From positions 8,910,571 to 8,974,570 of the forward strand of contig JASSKH010000029.1 in NCBI GenBank assembly GCA_031763025.1: DNA of 64,000 nucleotides, written 5' to 3'. This document shows positions 11,128 through 64,000 of this stretch, piece after piece (positions within the stretch are counted from its first letter, which is position 1; every line of letters starts with the position of its first letter). The DNA comes from Macrocystis pyrifera. Lineage: Eukaryota; Sar; Phaeophyceae; Laminariales; Laminariaceae. The translations under genes and the position numbers were made by a program. Below the pieces are notes generated by a model that saw only the letters and a list, made by a program, of their open reading frames with translations, ran no database searches and was not told where the DNA came from.

Positions 11128-11836
11128 CCTGTGTTGCACTACCCACGAAAAAAGCTGATATTGCCAAAAGTCCCGACCACAAAGACACTGGAAGCACGTC
11201 TGCCGCCGTGATTTTTACTGACGACGTGTCGTTTTTCTGCTCAATCCCAACCGTTCCTTGCGGGCAAAAATTTGGCAGACCAGAGACGAGCTCTTGGGTG
11301 CATTCTCGTGAGTGGGCCAAGGCGACAGCCATTTTCGTTTCCTCCTTCGGGGCGGACCTCGTCGCTGAAGTTTGAAAATGTTTCAGGCGCTTGAATGTTT
11401 GGTTTCTTGTACTGTAGCCAAGTTTTGTTTTCCTGCTGTAGAACGAGCGGAGGGACCCAGAAGTCGTCCCGACCAGGAGGGACCCAGAAGTCGTAACGAG
11501 TACGTTCCTCCTTCTCGTTCTTCAGCAGAATAAAAAATACTTGACTACAGTACAAGAAACCAAACATTCAAGGGCCTGGAACCATTGTTTCAAACTACAG
11601 CGACGAGGTCCGCCCCGAAGGAGGACACGAAAGTGCTGTCGCTTTGGCACACTCACGGTAGTCCACCAAGCAGCTCATATCCGGTCTTGCAATTGTTGGC
11701 CCGATAGGAACGTTGGGAGCTGGGGCAAAAAAACGAAAAGTCCTCGTGAAAAAACGGCGGCAGACGTGCTTCCATTTGCTTTGTTGTCGGAACTTTTGGC
11801 TATTTCAGCGTTTTTTAATGGGGAGTGCAACACAGG
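11128..11836. mobile_element. foldback (long inverted-repeat) element
   Basis: Two arms of about 325 bp, 11128-11455 and about 11510-11836, are inverted copies of each other. The ends read CCTGTGTTGCACT and its complement. The roughly 55-bp loop holds two direct copies of gagggacccagaagtcgt (about 11450 and 11477). Several long words such as GAATGTTTGGTTTCTTGTAC match perfectly between the arms. It directly follows repeat copy D. I could not settle a target-site duplication. No coding potential is seen; the minus-strand frame at 11241-11567 spans the arm and loop and is probably chance. Confidence 0.8.
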
Positions 11837-17534: not shown

Positions 17535-17812
17535 TGTTGGTTGATCTCTAAAGGTATAGACGCAGCTGGCAAGGGAACGCGTGGTTGACTCCAGACAGTA
17601 ACACGGAACTCCTCTTATATTATATCCGAGCTGTCGAGTGACAGCTCATGCATCGTATGCAGATTATTATTCAACATGACGCGGGAATAAACCTCCCGTT
17701 TATCCCCCCGAAGATCCAACTAAATATCCCTCTCCTATAATCCTATGTCAATATATGGAACTCCCTAATATTAGATGTAACGTCTCCGTCGTGTTTCTGA
17801 GCACAATCAATA
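17535..17812 (-). repeat. Copia 3' LTR
   Basis: Matches 23749-24026 over 278 bp with about eight differences. On the element's strand the LTR begins TATTG and ends CAATCAACA, so the 5' dinucleotide is TA rather than the usual TG. Confidence 0.9.
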
Positions 17813-23748: not shown

Positions 23749-24026
23749 TGTTGATTGATCTCTAAAGGTATAGGCGCAGCTGGCACGAGAACGCGTGGTT
23801 GACTCCAGACAGTAACACGGAACTCCTCTTATATTATATCCGAGCTGTCGAGTGACAGCTCATGCATCGTATGCAGATTATTATTCAACATGACGCGGGA
23901 ATAAACCTCCCGTTTATCCCCCCGAATATCCGATTAAATATCCCTCTCCTATAATCCTATGTCAATACATGGAACTCCCTAATATTAGATGTAACGTCTC
24001 CGTCGTGTTTCTGAGCACAATCAATA
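23749..24026 (-). repeat. Copia 5' LTR
   Basis: 278-bp partner of 17535-17812. It is followed on the right by the CAATC duplication at 24027-24031. Confidence 0.9.
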
Positions 24027-33535: not shown

Positions 33536-34060
33536 CGGACAGCTCGTGAGCTAGCTCATCTATCGTGTAGAGCTTAAGTTCGAAAACATGTGCAGATGAG
33601 CTACCGCCTATAGCTCAAGCCGGGGGAAACATGTGTAGCTCATGTAGCTCCTATAGCTCAGCCTGGGAAAATTTGTGTAGATGAGCTATCCTCTATAGCT
33701 CAAGCCTTGTAAACATGTGCAGATGACCTACCGCCTATAGCTTCAAGCCTTGAAAAAGCGTGCAGATGAGCTACCACCCGTAGCTCAAGCCTTCAAAACA
33801 TGTGCAGATGAGCTATTACGGGGGTCCATAGTTAACGGGACCAATTTTTTTTTAGTAAAAACAAGTAAATATATTGCTTTTTATGTATACCATAGGTCCT
33901 ATTAACTATGGACCCCTGTAATACCACCCATAGCTCAAGCCTTCAAAACATGTGCAGATGAGCTACCACATATAGGTCAAGCAGGGAAAGCATGTGCAGA
34001 TGAGCTAACACCTATAGCTCACCCCCGGAGAACATAATCATAGCTCATCATGCACGCAAT
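33536..34060. repeat. satellite of about 50 bp (TAGCTCAAGCC unit)
   Basis: About nine units share TAGCTCAAGCCTTCAAAACA followed by TGTGCAGATGAGCTACC, with 40-55 bp spacing. The array is interrupted at 33816-33921 by a MITE. A detached fragment of the same unit lies at about 34598-34680. Confidence 0.85.
33816..33921. mobile_element. 105-bp MITE, TA duplication, inside the satellite
   Basis: Inverted ends TTACGGGGGTCCATAGTTAA and its near complement at the right; AT-rich middle. It sits inside a satellite unit, and neighbouring units give the empty site (gagctaccac), showing that TA was duplicated (33814-33815, 33922-33923). TA duplication points to a Tc1/mariner-type source. Confidence 0.92.
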
Positions 34061-39769: not shown

Positions 39770-42011
39770 GTTGTTACCGTCTCTGAATGGGGAACAGTCA
39801 GGAAACGGTTAGTTGTGACTCGGCAGGATTTCACTGCAAATACTGAATCGAGTAGGTGCCGGCAGCCAACAAACTGACTCTAGCTTGCACGTTGGCTGGC
39901 GAATCCAGCTGATGGCCAGCCGACTATCCCACCTAAGCCAGGCGAGTAAAGCGAGCCCGATCATGTTTCCCAAGCCGAGGGGGGGCCACGCAAAACCAAA
40001 TAGAAAATGTCACGTTCAGAAAGCATTCATACTAAAATGTAAACCCAATACGCCGGAGAGGTAGTACCTCCGCGAAACGAACAACTTTAAAATCCTACAG
40101 ATAACTAGGTGGTGACTGTAGTCGTGCCGATTCACAGCTCCAGTAAATGAGGTTTCAATTTTTCAGGTTTCAAGATATACAAGATCAATCGGGACACATC
40201 AATGAATCAGTCTAATAGCAGGACGGCGCGCCTCTGACCGAGCACGCGATAAAGGACATCCCGTCATCCAAGAAATACACACAGCACGGGGAGCAACCAG
40301 TTTCCTACTGAGGCTCTTGTCGTCAATATGCAACGCCTCCTGCAGGGTGCTCGGATAACTCTACGGCGTCACGTCTCGAGTGAGACAGGCGGTAAGCCAA
40401 GTCGACCAAGTGCGCTAAGCCATCAAAACATGCGTTGCGGGCCATGATTCCAACATGCTCGTCGGAAATTGTTAGAGGTCACCATGGGTAAGATTGCTAC
40501 GACCAGATCAACACTGGATACAGTAGAGTACACACATCAAATACCAAATAAACATTTTGAGCTGTTCGAGTGATGAAGCTCACCGGCAACTTTGGCGAGA
40601 GCGCTCTTTCCTCGTTTGTTTGACCTTCGGGCTAGATATTCTGTGGGCAGACTGCTCGTTACTAGGAACGACAACTACCCCTTGAGGCAGAAGCAGCAAC
40701 AGCCGAAGCACCTAGTGCGAACAGTCCAATTATCGAAGGAGCCGACGCGTAAGTCTCTCGTCTTCCTTGACATAATGCGCACAAGAGAGAACGAGAGAAC
40801 GAGCGAAAATAAGAGAGATATGAAATAAAAAAAGAAAAACGGGCGCGATGCCCATGTACTAAGGCATAAAGAAGGGAGACATGTACACCGGCGGTGAAGA
40901 AAATAGGAAAACGGCCGCGCTGCTCATGTACTCAGGCATATAAAAAGGAAAGATGTACACCAGCGCTCAAGCTATGGCACGGCAAAGAAGGTTCATTATC
41001 TCAAGCTGCGACCCAGATTCATTGTATCAGATACACATTTCTCGGAACGAATGTACCCAGTTAGCCCCCGGTACGCGCGTATTTGAAAACTAGCATTTCG
41101 ACCCGTAAATAAAGCTAGCGATAAGCACATGCGCCAACGCAAGTATGAATTCCTCGCAGATCTTGTCTCGTCTTTGATTTTTCGAGTGGTTTAGTTGACG
41201 ATTCATATATACCATTATGATATGTGGCCACGAAGGAACACATTATTCCAATTCGAAATGCTCCCCTTCGATCTTGAATCTGATCAAGCGTGACGACGAG
41301 TTCAACAACTGCACCCATACAATGGGACGACACAGTAAGAACGTTCTTCACTGCCGGTTTAAGTACGTCGGGGGGCACGACGTCGTTTGGAAAATTCCAC
41401 AATGCGTCGTTGTCTCTTTAGAAAGGACACTATGGGCACCGAATACATTTTCAAGTGGTACATGTAATTTTTATATATTAGCTCATTTAGACAAATCGGC
41501 GAATATACATCCATACAAAGGGACCTTCGCGGAGGCGGACTGACGCCCGCCTCGACTACGACCGTGAGCGCAACAGCCGGGAGTTTAGGTAAGCCGACGC
41601 CGTAAATGCAGCAGCACAGGCAATAGGAATAGAATGACGAATCGTGTTCGAGTGACGACAAACAAAACATTGAAATCAGGTTCGATGAACCAGCAGAAAA
41701 TAAAGTTCCACGCATACCCGCAGTGATCGAGGGTGTAGGCGAATGAACAGCCCGCAAGTGCAACAGCACCGCCAAGGGGTATTTTTATTTTTTATTTTGT
41801 ATTCATCACTTTTACTTTCCAGCCCACTCGTACGAGGTTTTACCCTCGACGATCTTCTGGACAAGCGTGTCGTCCCATCTCCCCCCCGGTACGTGCCTTT
41901 TATTTTTGTCGCGCATAGGGTTCAGCATTCCCACTGCTCGTCGATTTTCATCGAATGTAGCCAACTCACGCTTTCGCGCTTTCCGCTTATCAATTTTTTA
42001 TGCAAGAAAAA
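39770..42011. other. unassigned sequence upstream of the ankyrin gene
   Basis: Holds the presumed promoter of the ankyrin gene and otherwise only short frames without motifs. A two-unit tandem repeat lies at 40836-40972. Confidence 0.35.
40836..40972. repeat. two tandem units of about 70 bp
   Basis: Both units share CATGTACT.AGGCATA and GATGTACACC words, with about 80% similarity by eye; the units start near 40836 and 40908. Confidence 0.7.
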
Positions 42012-42107
42012 GTCCCTATGAGCATGTGCACTCGGTGGGACTTGAACCCACGAAATTGATCTTGACAGGCACGCGGACCACCTACCAAGCCACCGGGGAC
42101 GCCAGCT
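42012..42107 (-). pseudogene. tRNA-like sequence with polymerase III boxes
   Basis: On the minus strand an A-box-like word (tggcttggtagg, 42081-42092, 11 of 12 to the consensus) is followed by a full B box (gggttcaagtcc, 42038-42049) inside a good T-arm (GTGGG loop CCCAC). A run of five T follows at 42011-42007. The acceptor and anticodon stems pair poorly, so this is more likely a tRNA pseudogene or SINE head than a working tRNA; the middle faintly recalls tRNA-Leu. It ends 2-3 bp from the large palindrome at 42110. Confidence 0.5.
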
Positions 42108-42109
42108 GG

Positions 42110-43642
42110 TATAGGCTACCTTCGTTAAGATTCTTTTTAGCGAAATCCTGATTAAATGACTTGAATAAAGTATAGAAATGTCTCAGATGTGCCACCAAAT
42201 CTCTCATAGTAAAATCCTATATTAAAAAGTCTTTTGAGCGCGGCACAGCAGTTTGACATAGGGACATGGAGATACCGAGAGACTTAGCGCCACCCAACGG
42301 GTCCCGCCGTCCCGCTACACGGCCGGGGCTACACCCAAGCACTCTACAGACGGCACCTCCTCGTGTCTACAAGGCGGAGATGAAGCACTGCGCCGTGTGA
42401 CGAGCCAGGGACTGAACACACTTGGGGGTAAAATTGTCAAACGGAGCAAGAAATATTCGAACAACTTGCTAACCACTTCCTCAAAGAAAGAGGACCCGAT
42501 GACGCAGCTGGATCAGCAAACTTACGAAGTCTTCATGATGCAGCACCGTCAAACTGGAAGGCTACACGAACACAAGGACACACCTACAGCCCTCTTCCAC
42601 ACGCAACTCCTCTAAGGACGATGTCTCTGTGCTTCTAGACGTCCGTGGCTCGGTTGTAGACGTCTCCAGTCGTCAACTGTTACCAGCAACTGCTTGTCCG
42701 AGACTATTTGATGCGGTGCAATATACCGCTGCTGTTTTGTGCTACGCCAAGTCTCACTTTGCAAAGCACCAAGCAGCTAGCTCTCCTCGGCACAGCGTAG
42801 CCCGCCACAGTAGTGCGGGACAGAAAGCTTAGCTGCCTGGTGGCCTGTCGGAGATCGAAGGGCTTGCGGCGGCACCCTCTGTCGTTGAGGACGGCAGCTA
42901 AGCTCTGCGGCCCGCACTACTGTGGCGAGCTATGCTGCGCCGAGGAGAGCTGGCTGCTTGGTGCTTCGCAGAGTGAAAGTTCGCGTAGCACAAAGCAGCA
43001 GCGGTAGATTGCACCGCATCAAATAGGCTCGGACAAGCAGTTGCTGGTAACAGTTGACGACTGGGGACGTCTACAACCCGAGCCACGGACGTCTAGAAGC
43101 ACAGAGACATCGTCCTTGGAGGAGTTGCGTGTGGAAGAGGGCTGTAGGTGTGTCCTTGCGTTCGTGTAGCCTTCCAGTTTGACGGTGCTGCATCATGAAG
43201 ACTTCGTAAGTTTGCTGATCCAACTGCGTGATCGGGTCCTCTTTCTTTGAGCAAGTGGTTAGCAAGTTGTTCGAATATTTCTTGCTCCGTTTGACAATTT
43301 TACCCCCAAGTGTGTTCAGTCCCTGGCTCGCCACACGGCGCAGTGCTTCATCTCCGCCTTGTAGACACGAGGAGGTGCCGTCTGTAGAGTGCTTGGGTGT
43401 AGCCCCGGCCGTGTAGCGGGACGGCAGGACCCGTTGGGTGGCGCTAAGTCTCTCGGTATCTCCATGTCCCCATGTCAAACTGCTGTGCCACGCTCAAAAG
43501 ACATTTTAATTTAGGATTTTACCATGAGAGATTTGGTGGCACATCTGAGACATTTTTTTACTTTATTAAAGTCATTTAATCAGGATTTCCCACCCCCTAC
43601 AGCAAAAAACGCCAAAACAAATATGAACGAAGGTAGCCTATA
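42110..43642. mobile_element. 1.53-kb near-perfect palindrome (giant foldback)
   Basis: The left arm 42110-42837 and right arm 42893-43642 are inverted copies separated by a 55-bp loop. Identity looks above 95% over the inner 600 bp (about six differences in a 230-bp comparison) and about 90% in the outermost part, where the right arm also has roughly 25 extra bases. The outer end reads TATAGGCTACCTTCGTT in both arms. I found no clear target duplication. Both arms carry the same protein-like reading frame. It may be a foldback transposon, a captured gene fragment duplicated in inverted orientation, or a source of long hairpin RNA. Confidence 0.9.
43071..43478 (-). CDS. hypothetical frame in the palindrome arm
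   Basis: A 135-residue open frame in the right arm. Its middle (SQGLNTLGGKIVKRSKKYSN, then NNLLTTCSKKEDP and YEVFMMQHRQTGRLHE) is repeated in the left arm at 42397-42615 (+) with only about four residue changes. I do not recognise the family. Conservation of the frame may simply reflect recent duplication. It could be a captured fragment of a host or transposon gene. Confidence 0.3.
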   Translation of the reverse strand: MTWGHGDTERLSATQRVLPSRYTAGATPKHSTDGTSSCLQGGDEALRRVASQGLNTLGGKIVKRSKKYSNNLLTTCSKKEDPITQLDQQTYEVFMMQHRQTGRLHERKDTPTALFHTQLLQGRCLCASRRPWLGL

Positions 43643-45828
43643 CATTGAAATATTTATCGTACAAGGGAAGAGAACGCAAACAACTGAACCAGGTTCATTG
43701 AACCAGCAACAAAATGTATGCCGCCAAAAAGGGAAATCGACGCCACACACCTCAAGAGATTACAATGGAAACCAGACCGGAGCATTAAGATTTATGGGCG
43801 AAGTCAGAACAAAACGCCGTTTTGTGTCTTTATCTTCACTTGGTCCCGACGTAGGCCAAGATGGAGGTTTAACGAATATTTCCTGGGGCTCGTACTCACT
43901 TTAGGCGCTGTGAACCCCCCGGAAAAAACATTTATCTCGAGAAAAACCGGCAGTGAAACACGATGAAGAATTCGACGGCCTTGGCATTTATCGAAAGGAA
44001 GTGAAAAAAGCGATTAGCATTCCAGCAATGTAGAGCAATCTCATTGATCTTAAGGAAGTGAACGACATGAACAAATAATCCAGCGAGATTGCGAAATCAT
44101 TGAGATGAGAAGTCCCGCCAGTAGGAATAGTTTGGAAAAAACGTCCTACCACTTTCGTAGCACGCATTTCCTGCCTCTATCTAGGCAAAATAAAAACGGT
44201 CGTGCGGCGTGCCATTTGTTTTTGTTTCGATGCCCTCGCTTGGCACAATGTGTATACCTACGATAAGAATAAAATGTGCTGCACTCAGTTGGCTATGAAG
44301 TACGCGAAAAGCCAAGCCAAGCGTTTGTAATGCCTCCATCAAGTATCGCCCTTAAAATGCTCATTTTCCGTCTCTCCTTTTGGGCCTACTTGAAGGTGCC
44401 GTTGTACGTTCTGGCACTCGTGGGTACAACAGCAGCAACAGCGTTACTATTCACAGGCGAACTTGCATGTTGGCAGGCCTACAGCACATCTGCGCGTATG
44501 ATATTATATGACAGAACGTGCCAAAAGCGTTGTTGTCAACAACAAACAGCAGCAGCATAGCAAACACACGGTGTCCAAGACAAAAGGAAACATATACCAA
44601 ACGCAAAAAAGCAATCTCTGCCGGATTCAAACCGGGCAGGGCCAAGGTAAACGTCTAACATCTGTTCGCTGACCCAACTTGCGTCTAATCAATTTGCCAT
44701 AGACTGGTATACTCCTATATGTGCGCGAACCATTTGAACTCGTAACGGTTTTCTCGATGAGAACAATACGGTACTACCCATCGCCCTCGGGACGCAGTGC
44801 AAGCCAACCGAGGCCGACTTTGGCGTGCTCGGGAGGGGCGAGCCTCACGAGGCACGTCCAGGCAACAGTGCACTAAGAGGTGGAACTCGTCTCAAGTTAG
44901 GTCGTTTTCGGCTCAAAACAAACAACAGAATCGGTTTTTAAATTGGTGAATGCGAACCTCCATGTGTCATCCCACCAACACCTCGAAATATTCGTAAGTT
45001 TACCTCGTAGTCTAAAAACATAACGCTGTTTGATAAATAGTATCTACGAAGAATCGTATTCGTACACTGGTCAGTACATACCGAAACAGCAAGTGCTGGA
45101 TCCGACGGAGTCAGTCGGCATGTGGCAATATCGTTTTATCTAGCGCAAGACAATTCAACACTGGTAGCATAGGGCTTGATCATTTTTTCCGCAGTCGTCG
45201 GTCACCCCGGCGCCCCGTCGGCTCCAGCCATCGCGTGGGTGACGGATTCCATCCGTCTACGGGCTATGTCCGTCGCTTACCCGATCCAACATAGAGCAAG
45301 GGAACATCCCAGCCGTCACAGTAGCAATACAGTACTACAGCAGTGACTTGGAGTTGGCGATTTCCAAGCGTAGGGAAGGGTGTTAGTTCCTAGGCCCCTG
45401 TGTCAAGCCATGATGTGCCGTGTGTTCAACTTCGATTGTATCACCTCGGGACTCGGATACCAAATGAAGGTTTTGGACAAGCTACAAGAAAAGAGGCACC
45501 GGGTTGGCCGTAAACAATACGTCCCTCGCCGATGTCGAGCGGGAGAGGGTTAGGGATGCCGTTGGGAGTGGGAGTATTTGTCGAGTGGAGGGACGGAAGC
45601 GTGTGGCTGCGGCAAGCGCGAGGGAATGACAATGAAGTATGGCTTCACGATCGCTCTGCCCAAAATGTTGGTGTGGCAGTTATTCAACCCGATTAGAAAA
45701 ATGCGCGGTGGCGATGCAAGGGTAGACGCACGGGAAATGAGGGTTCCATGCCGGCGGAGTTGGTCTCGAGGCTTATCTTCTCCATGGAAAAGTCCACACC
45801 GTGTGTTGCCTGACAAGAAGTTGTTTTA
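43643..45828. other. unassigned sequence, no gene recognised
   Basis: Short frames only. A weak tRNA-like signal is listed separately at 44608-44690. Confidence 0.35.
44608..44690 (-). pseudogene. weak tRNA-like sequence
   Basis: On the minus strand a B-box-like word (ggtttgaatcc, 10 of 11), an A-box-like word upstream (tgggtcagcgaa, 9 of 12) and a T6 run downstream at about 44610. The acceptor stem does not pair. It may be chance or an old SINE/tRNA relic. Confidence 0.25.
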
Positions 45829-45933
45829 TTACGGGGGTCCATAGTTAATGGGGCCAAATTTTGTTATTGAAAATAGGTAAATATATAGGTGTTTATGTAT
45901 ACCATAGGTCCTATTAACTATGGACCCCCGTAA
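45829..45933. mobile_element. 105-bp MITE, TA duplication (copy 2)
   Basis: Inverted ends TTACGGGGGTCCATAGTTAA and TTAACTATGGACCCCCGTAA, flanked by TA at 45827-45828 and 45934-45935. About 85-90% similar by eye to the copy at 33816. Confidence 0.92.
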
Positions 45934-47446
45934 TACCTTTCCCCAGAGAGATCTGCACGTCGAGTTCGCGAATCGATCGAGCGCGAACGCAATGAAGGTA
46001 AAAAAAGAAGAAAACAGCAGGGTGCACAATTACTCGATGTAGGGCGGTGGACGGGACGGAAGGAAGGGGGGGCAGCGGGACCATGCGAAACACTGCTGCG
46101 GCTACTCAATAAACACATCACATACCAACAGCTCAAAGGGAAGCCTCTGTCAAAAGCCAGGCTCACGCCGCTTGGGTAAAGAGGGTTAACACGGACAGAA
46201 GCGGCAGCAGCTTCGAGGTTAGTGCTTGCAACTTGCGGCAGAGGTCCAGCTCAATACGCGTTGCACTCGAGAAAAGTAGGGGCGGTAACCCAACTATAGG
46301 CGCAGGGGGTCCCGAAGATACAAATCCAACGGGAAGGCAAAAGGAAGTCGCGGGCGATCATGACTTCAGTGTGGAAAGCGGGGGAAACTACAGCAAGGAT
46401 CCCCGCCGCCATCGTGTGGGCAAGGTAAACAGTTCAGGATGCCCCTCATTTGTGAGAGACACATAGCCTCGCACGGGAAGTGAGACATAGGGTTCGCCTT
46501 AGGAGGTCTTCCGGAGGGAGTTTGGGTATGGGGTACAAATAAGGGCATCGCTCACGGCGCGTTAAGTGATTCAGCACCGCACCCATGCACTCGAAGTTTT
46601 CAGCAAGGTAGCGATGTTCCCGTCATTCGAAAATTAGAATTCGTCATCCTTGGGCACAAAACATGCCCCTATCGCCAGTAAAACTTCTTGGTAGTTGTAC
46701 AACGTTTCAACAGGTGTACGTGTAATTGTGCAATGCCGCAGACCGCATGCCAGCGGGAACGTACGCACGTTTTGGTTATTATTGACACAACAGCAGTAAG
46801 TGTTAACCTTAAAGTTTCAAACTTGATTACAATACGTACAGGCCCGCCACAAGAAACACCCAGTCTGCCGAAGCCCTAGAACCGTATCGTAAAACCAGTC
46901 TTTAGCAACCCTAACAACGTACTATTACGACGAGGCGCGGAAACGTGAAGCGAAGGCTTTTTTTCTAGGTTTTCCAAGGAAAAAATACCTGTTCATAAAG
47001 AGTCGCACGAGAGTAGGAAGCCTTGTTTTTTTTTTCTCTGTAAGTGTGTGTGCGTCATCGTGTGTAATTCAACATTTTGTTCGGCCACGTTTGTCTACCG
47101 CGCTCAACGCATACGGCACTAATGCCAGTCCTGGCGAGGCCTGTGCACGGACACACACTAACGAAACCTCGTCGTGCTGGTGCGGGTGTAAGTCGTTCAG
47201 AGTCGGTCGAGCTAGGGGCGGCAACGTGTGTAGGCATGTGGCTGGGCCATGGTAAAAAGAAAAGACCGGTAAACTATCAAAATGGTTTGTGTTTACTTGG
47301 CTCTACATAACGAAACCCAACTTTACAAGTAGTCGCAGGCAGAACGTGCTTGTCCACAGCAACGTCCACGTCGTGTCCCTAAGACCTGCTGGAGGTGGTG
47401 TCTTACCAGGCCCACCCTCCAACTGATGAGGACACGGACAAGCAAG
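45934..47446. other. unassigned sequence, no gene recognised
   Basis: Short frames without motifs on both strands. Confidence 0.35.
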
Positions 47447-56860: not shown

Positions 56861-57265
56861 CATTGCTCTCTATGCACGAACGCCAATGTGAAGTGTGATA
56901 TATCCCACCCTGTGGTGATGCGACGTGCTAAACAAACTTCCTACGTCGGTGCACATACTTCAAGCAGAATCTGGTCCAGATGGTTATATATTTGGCTAAC
57001 ACCAATTCGTTTCACGTAAGATATGTTGCATTGGACTTTGGTGTGACATCCACAAGGATCGCCTGTTGGCCGAAGACTACATTTGTTGCTGTACCAGTGG
57101 CCTTCTCTTTTCAGTTTCGACGTATGGGTGCGCTACCATCAAAGGGTGTGTGGTTGTCAACGGAGAATTGAAACGGTTGTATGGGTGTCGGCGACTACGT
57201 CCTTGTCGTATCATACGTAGTCTTTTTAGCTGTACGTTAGTGACTTAGTTGTATGTATAGGTTTA
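56861..57265. other. downstream flank, nothing seen
   Basis: Short frames only between the decayed gene and the MITE. Confidence 0.3.
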
Positions 57266-57371
57266 TTACGGGGGACCATCTTAAATAGGGCCAAATTTTG
57301 TTCATAAAAATATGCAATTATATAGGTTTATATGTAAACCATAGGTCCCATCAACTATGGAGCCCCCGTAA
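57266..57371. mobile_element. 105-bp MITE, TA duplication (copy 3)
   Basis: Ends TTACGGGGGACCAT and ATGGAGCCCCCGTAA, flanked by TA (57264-57265, 57372-57373). The inside matches the 45829 copy (GGGCCAAATTTTGTT, ACCATAGGTCC). Confidence 0.9.
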
Positions 57372-57373
57372 TA

Positions 57374-62427: not shown

Positions 62428-62491
62428 CTGAAATTATCCCTTGTTCACATCCAGCACAACCAATGTCCGAGCCGACTGATATTTGACAGAT

Positions 62492-62642
62492 GAGCTCTGT
62501 GGTCACAAAGCGTAACCCTAAGAGATACACGTTGGAAATACAACAAGGGAATCAGGCTATAAAATGCAGACCGGAACACCAGCCGCATCGGCTAGTGTTC
62601 GAGGGCGAGAAATATGCATACAGCACGCCAGCCTATTTGCAG
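62492..62642 (+). other. possible exon, copy 1
   Basis: Encodes SSVVTKRNPKRYTLEIQQGN and further on LVFEGEKYAYSTPAYLQ, ending at a strong donor-like cag|gtaaga (62642/62643). The paired copy at 63570-63718 differs by two inserted bases, so the two copies do not share one frame throughout. The family is not recognised. Confidence 0.3.
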
Positions 62643-62959
62643 GTAAGAACAAAAGAGATAACAGTGTCTGCGCAATAGAAAAATTAGTACGTGTTGTGCT
62701 CATCTGCTCCCCCATCACCGACTGCACATCCGAAGGCCTTCGTCGAATATGCTCAAAACAACGACAATACGCATTTCATAATAGCGCATTATATTACTAG
62801 CTTGTGACGGCAAATGTGTGACATGAGATTTGGGCTCTACTTATCTTCGACCAAAAATCTCCGGACGTTTTGGATTGGCTAGGCTTGCCCCGCGAGTGGC
62901 CTTGGACTATGTCTGCTAGAGGCGGGGTTTCGCTATGACAAGAATTACTGTCATTGTTG

Positions 62960-63509: not shown

Positions 63510-64000
63510 CTGAAGTTATCCCTCGTTCACACCCGGCACAACCAATGTCCGAGCCGACTGATATTTGACGAGCTCTGTGGTCACAAAGCGTAACCCTAAG
63601 AGATACACGTTGGAATACAACAAGGGAATCAGCTATAAAATGCAGACCGGAACACCAGCCGCATCGGCTAGTGTTCGAGGGCGAAAAATATGCGAACAGC
63701 ACGCCAGACTATTTGCAGGTAAGAACAAAAGAGTTAACAGTGTCTGCGCAATAGAAAAATTAGTACGTGTTGTGCTCGTCTGCTCCCCCGTCACCGACTG
63801 CACATCCGAAGGCCTTCGTCGAATATGCTCAAAACAACGACAATACGCATTTCATAATAGCGCATTATATTACTAGCTTGTGACGGCAAATTTGTGACAT
63901 GAGATTTGGCCGATACTTATTTTCGACTAAAAATCTCCGGACGTTTTGGATTGGCCAGGCTTGCCCCGCGAGTGGCCTTGGACTATGTCTGCTAGAGGCG

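Follow-up and report, generated by a model that had tools for sequence, protein, structure and literature searches.

A foldback-type palindromic transposon of giant kelp, proposed to derive from the terminal repeat of an AcademX-like element and bearing traces of probable gene conversion between its arms

A stretch of 64,000 nucleotides from the giant kelp Macrocystis pyrifera, on contig C210 (hereafter the window), contains a long palindrome whose two arms are nearly alike, raising the questions of what kind of element this is, how it arose and what keeps its arms similar. A first-pass annotation, made from the sequence letters, had reported a giant palindrome with a 55-bp loop, and self-comparison confirms this: the palindrome is 1525 bp long (42114-43638), and its arms make up 1470 bp of that length. 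Self-complement matching and arm alignment place the left arm, a terminal inverted repeat (TIR) starting with GGCTACCTTCG, at 42114-42837 (plus strand, 724 bp), and the right arm, a TIR terminating in CGAAGGTAGCC, at 42893-43638 (minus strand, 746 bp). The 55-bp loop between them (42838-42892, plus strand) shows homology to the innermost part of one TIR of the longer element described below. The span of 42110-43642 initially assigned to the palindrome does hold it, but consists of the element plus a 4-bp TATA target-site duplication on the left (42110-42113) and on the right (43639-43642); an alternative 3-bp reading of the duplication is ATA/TAT. A single gapped self-complement match covers 42142-43589 at 93.1% identity with a BLAST E-value of 0, which excludes a chance origin of the inverted repeat. 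The aligned arms are 94.8% identical. The estimate of more than 95% identity over most of their length is right for an ungapped block of 512 nt (97%) but too high for the inner block of 186 nt (91%) and the outer one of 34 nt (85%). No tandem array scoring 50 or more is present in 42110-43642. A tRNA-like SINE at 42010-42102 adjoins the left end of the palindrome; a first look through the genome gave 572 candidates for it, 40 of which were scored, and it carries on its minus strand GGTTCAAGTCC, which we take to resemble a B box.

One arm was searched against the Macrocystis pyrifera assembly (537,376,219 bases in 223 contigs), giving at least 53 matches, spread over all 40 scored first-look candidates; the classification of copies covers 30 loci, plus weaker matches where named. 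Eight loci are two-armed palindromes: the window copy, L036 (C220), L037 and L038 (both C207), L040 (C223), L041 (C202), L042 (C218) and L043 (C125), the last without its outer ends. L039 and L044 have the same loop beside a single arm, the other being reduced to ~11 bp or 1 bp, as if they were former palindromes that had lost one arm close to the hairpin tip; the loss of an arm within ~11 bp of the loop border is possibly a trace of hairpin cleavage. L083 (94%) and L084 (95%) are partial single arms, closer to the palindromes than is the TIR of the long element on C145, though neither was linked to any long element. Diverged relatives of the arm are found at L045 (~80%) and L046 (~75%).

The eight palindromes lie in unrelated surroundings. 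When their 900-bp flanks are compared, no two copies match over more than 106 nt (at 83%), so the palindromes are separate insertions and not products of segmental duplication. All eight have one loop and one arm-loop junction in common (42837/42838 in the window), and a pattern search finds this junction in both remnants too (in L039 with 8 edits, the arm being cut there). The same search finds no such junction in the longer-element repeats L018-L035 or in L045 and L046, most of which do have the other loop border, with 1-8 edits. Because the junction is present in every palindrome and in none of the longer-element repeats examined, the copies likely go back to one founding event followed by movement.

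The arm is homologous to the TIR (85-88% identity) of a ~20-kb element that encodes an XPG-type nuclease. One such element lies at C145:318286-338455, where the arm matches at 318.3 kb (plus) and 338.4 kb (minus), ~20.2 kb apart. Its TIR (943 bp at 95.5%) is longer than the palindrome arm and contains the 55-bp sequence of the loop; its left TIR is 87.7% identical to the left arm in the window. A copy on C157, in the opposite direction, is 96-99% identical to it over the large pieces compared, with its right TIR covered in part, and shares its flanks. The ~20-kb unit was observed in full on C145 and C157 only. Thirteen long-element TIR loci (L018-L030) are 87-89% identical to the arm, and at 11 of the 13 one of the same two flanks recurs, on small contigs; most of these loci therefore spread as part of a larger repeat rather than by transposing. 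The small contigs with long-element TIRs beside either recurrent flank are C23, C34, C68, C89, C145, C155, C157, C166 and C188. C195 and C196 have TIRs together with interior matches of the long element at other sites. The palindromes resemble each other (means of 91-94%) more than they resemble the C145 TIR (87-89%), so the copy that gave rise to them directly may no longer exist.

The interior of the long element encodes a 406-aa XPG-type nuclease (Pfam XPG_N at 1.1e-7 and 8.5e-8), the nearest PDB relatives of which are exonuclease 1 and FEN1. It also contains a cysteine-rich frame of 240 aa and two further frames with matches only within the long-element family. Relatives of the XPG protein are encoded at 13 other loci, all at 48% identity or less. 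At eight of these (C202, C201, C222:8.99 Mb, C220, C189, C126, C195:5.59 Mb and C216), the XPG gene is preceded on its own strand by a gene for a weaker relative of the cysteine-rich protein (E 5e-8 to 2.4e-4), with 13-14 kb from one start to the other; on C157 the arrangement is the same, with a spacing of 12.5 kb. The recurrence of spacing and strand links the two genes, and the eight paired loci, where the XPG relatives are open frames of 376-387 aa, probably represent a second family of giant elements. The cysteine-rich protein also matches places with no XPG neighbour, some with better E-values, and is thus not unique to these elements. Among 84 plus-strand open reading frames of at least 60 aa from C157, with introns left out and the other strand partly covered, Pfam gave no transposase match, and nothing beyond XPG and one weak unrelated match; to our knowledge the profile libraries contain no Academ profile. 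A Polinton or viral origin of the 20-kb element was rejected, as the same 84 frames matched no integrase, polymerase or capsid family at E 0.01.

The first-pass annotation had drawn attention to an open stretch common to both arms and suggested that it came from a parent gene. The frame YEVFMMQHRQTGRLHE is indeed open in both arms of the window, as 117 aa in the left arm (42262-42615, plus strand) and as 140 aa with the same sequence in the right (43071-43493, minus strand). It is not conserved across copies: in an alignment of 20 rows (the 16 arms of the palindromes, three parental TIRs and L045), a stop cuts the frame short in 13, and several have frame-changing indels. The three codon positions have gathered differences in roughly equal numbers (e.g. 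16, 15 and 14 in the long element E145), and neither frame has a Pfam match. We therefore judge both frames to be non-coding. The sequence they occupy is the end repeat of a transposon, and the suggested derivation from a gene is not upheld.

Both ends are readable in five of the eight palindromes. TATA stands on both sides in two of them (the window copy and L037), while the other three agree at 3 of 4 bp (L036 GATA/TATA, L038 AATA/TATA, L040 TATA/TATG); the ends of L041, L042 and L043 are altered or missing. TATA likewise flanks the C145 element at both ends. Empty-site comparison used four relatives of the L037 site and two of the L038 site, with a readable result from L037 only. Four paralogous relatives (80-82%) of the L037 site on C207 are without an insert. 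One of them reads GGTC-TATA-ATGA, where the filled site reads GGTC-TATA|GGCTACC...GGTAGCC|TATA-ATGA, and the other three differ in or just beside TATA. This comparison sets aside insertion by a tyrosine recombinase or with no target duplication, and a plain TA duplication of the Tc1 kind fails to give the observed empty site. A duplication of 3 bp with one extra terminal base is possible.

With long inverted repeats that dominate the element, and dispersed copies flanked by target duplications, the palindrome is a foldback-type non-autonomous DNA transposon: a known kind of element, set apart by its uncommon parent and by the unusual clarity with which it records conversion between arms. The first-pass annotation knew of no named element of this form, but foldback transposons are such elements. 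It had also named what would place the palindrome in a known foldback family, namely many genomic copies with target duplications and a standard transposase; the copies and duplications are largely present, whereas no standard transposase was recognised. As in the foldbacks FB of Drosophila, Galileo and Tetris, the long TIRs form most of the element, there is no conserved coding sequence and the target is duplicated. The kelp palindrome differs from these three in having no tandem sub-repeats in its arms at a score of 50 or more, a middle of only 55 bp, duplications of 3-4 bp and an XPG-bearing parent. The arms of classical Drosophila FB elements consist of tandem sub-repeats, and since the kelp arms contain no tandem array, the palindrome is not a classical FB. 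Possible homogenisation of repeats has been remarked upon in Tetris, in a source that describes the majority of foldbacks, though not all, as apparent members of Mutator (PMC4079207). With the kelp palindrome, a foldback element is linked to a lineage of transposons that encode an XPG nuclease, outside Mutator and P, the parents usual for foldbacks. Like a MITE, the palindrome is non-autonomous and TIR-ended, but at 1.5 kb and with eight two-armed copies it departs from the size and copy number usual for MITEs.

The nuclease of AcademX transposons is of the XPG type. Target duplications of 3 or 4 bp are described for AcademX and of 9 or 10 bp for AcademH, a difference tied to the encoded nuclease or helicase (PMC10045372). 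The parent of the kelp palindrome likewise encodes a nuclease, and the target duplications are of 3-4 bp, three of the five readable pairs matching over 3 bp only. It differs in its ~20-kb length, its ~0.94-kb TIRs and the lack of a recognised transposase core. On these sequence features the parent would fit the AcademX lineage. Literature searches under Academ together with brown algae, XPG, foldback or palindrome returned nothing on this element among the titles of the matches listed, in sources that cover subscription journals thinly.

The suggestion that the arms are homogenised is borne out, strongly in four of the eight copies including the one in the window, by private changes common to both arms and by converted marker blocks. 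Substitutions found exclusively in the two arms of one copy total 44 over the eight pairs, whereas 112 control pairs have a mean of 0.12 and a maximum of 2. By copy, the counts are 9 in the window, 9 in L036, 11 in L037, 0 in L038, 2 in L040, 8 in L041, 3 in L042 and 2 in L043; four copies thus show strong co-evolution of the arms, three show little and one shows none. Private substitutions present in both arms number 43, against ~1.2 predicted under independent mutation. In a tree of the arms, a copy's own arms are sisters with support of at least 0.8 in six of eight cases; the L040 pair has a support of 0.19, and the arms of L038 are unpaired. The shared changes are unevenly placed, with few in the ~175 bp nearest the loop: up to arm position 550 there are 43 both-arm and 143 one-arm changes, and beyond it 1 and 48 (Fisher p = 0.0003).

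A marker block at arm positions 634-642, inside this inner zone near the loop, distinguishes the arms. Its ancestral state, GCCAAGTCT, is that of the TIRs of the 20-kb elements E145 and E157, and is found in the left arm in the window (42746-42754, plus strand). The right arm has the derived core GCGAACTTT (42976-42984, minus-strand reading) and is one of the seven 3' arms, out of eight, that carry it. The ancestral core is present in five of the eight 5' arms and, with one additional change, in a sixth (L043). In L037 and L040 the 5' arm bears the 3' state, indicating that conversion reaches the inner zone in some copies. At arm positions 647 and 650, where the 5' arms differ from E145, L040 has the 5' state; as this state resumes at 647, the converted tract in L040 ends between 641 and 647, which fixes its edge to within 6 bp. 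Both arms of L042 carry the ancestral core, due either to conversion or to an earlier split. Under strict criteria no column of the alignment is arm-specific (0); under relaxed ones 8 are, with five forming a single block, against a mean of 2.9 after arm swapping (maximum 7 in 500 rounds), so the strict test alone is misleading. Most likely, the arms of several copies are kept alike by the copying of sequence from arm to arm, that is, by gene conversion.

We therefore propose, with a probability of about 0.8, that a TIR and a truncated inverted copy of it were fused once, that the product was moved in trans by an AcademX-like parent, and that its arms were then converted. In a single event, the TIR of the ~20-kb XPG-nuclease transposon would have been joined to an inverted copy lacking the inner 55 bp, giving an arm-loop-arm structure with almost no middle. 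The enzymes of the parent would recognise the GGCTACC ends and move the palindrome in trans, inserting it into AT-rich targets, usually TATA, with duplications of 3-4 bp. Gene conversion between the arms would have followed within copies, less often within ~175 bp of the loop, and two copies would have lost a whole arm. The eight copies thus offer a natural experiment on the evolution of long palindromes, with one founder, arm markers, converted blocks, a visible tract edge and a zone poor in shared changes near the hairpin turn. Models of palindrome conversion and arm loss become testable in kelp populations.

Three other accounts of the likeness between the arms were weighed. Were the arms equalised at each transposition, by an intermediate that snaps back so that one arm is rebuilt from the other, every insertion would be born with identical arms. 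L037 looks like such a case, its arms being 99.2% identical though it differs by 6-7% on average from other copies. Whole-arm rebuilding would, however, wipe out both the coexistence of the founder's two arm states, seen in five of eight copies (window, L036, L038, L041 and L043), and the rarity of both-arm private changes beyond arm position 550, leaving this account improbable. Several independent origins from different parent TIRs would likewise explain private changes common to a copy's arms, but would require the same breakpoints each time. The asymmetric 55-bp junction lies at the identical place in all eight copies, and the derived marker core on the 3' arms of seven is absent from E145, E157 and L045; we regard repeated origins as very improbable. 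Finally, long-read sequencing is known to produce foldback artefacts (PMC12870357), and an inverted duplication could in principle have been introduced by reads or assembly. The assembly was made from a haploid female gametophyte with ~100x PacBio coverage and a mean read length of 15.8 kb (PMC10498591). An artefact would yield near-identical arms, whereas the eight copies have differing arms, different flanks, target duplications and relatives with empty sites. Because eight copies at different sites share one junction, an artefact is extremely unlikely.

In a computed fold, a strand of the palindrome forms a hairpin that is 93% paired, with helices of up to 94 bp, and transcription across it might produce a long hairpin RNA. 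Mu killer of maize is comparable as a rearranged transposon with an inverted duplication of TIR-adjacent sequence and a proposed hairpin RNA (PMC3440606), but is a single locus with transposase gene sequence, whereas the kelp palindrome is dispersed, multi-copy and TIR-only. A similar role in kelp would have read-through hairpin RNA processed into 21-nt products that silence the 20-kb parent. In the brown alga Ectocarpus, small RNAs are mostly 21 nt long and enriched on intact transposons (PMC12477816), and one Argonaute is described (PMC12477816, PMC12867755). Against such a role, few exact 21-mers are shared with the window palindrome: 61 of 925 in the C145 left TIR, 50 of 924 in the C157 left TIR, 105 of 792 in a C196 TIR and 92 of 747 in a C195 TIR, or 5-13% by copy. 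The existence of several mobile copies also requires no silencing function, and we consider this role improbable. Equally improbable is the wider idea that conversion keeps the arms of a mobile palindrome pairable, its dispersed copies forming a self-maintaining source of hairpin RNA against a giant AcademX-like parent in a brown alga. If transcribed, the palindrome could be one of the elements that give rise to transposon small RNAs in brown algae.

The window contains several other repeats. A second, unrelated palindrome of ~709 bp at 11128-11836 has ends CCTGTGTTGCACTACCC, a 101-bp loop and arm blocks of 85-94%; it belongs to a large family, for which a first look gave 655 candidates; many of the 40 scored are two-armed. 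A MITE-like repeat of ~110 bp has three copies at 79-88% identity (45827-45935, which is palindromic, 33814-33925 and 57262-57373). Direct repeats at 62428-62924 and 63510-64000 (95%) may represent LTRs or else a tandem duplication truncated where the window stops. Those at 17535-17812 and 23749-24026 (97%, 6.2 kb apart) are possibly the LTRs of one retrotransposon.
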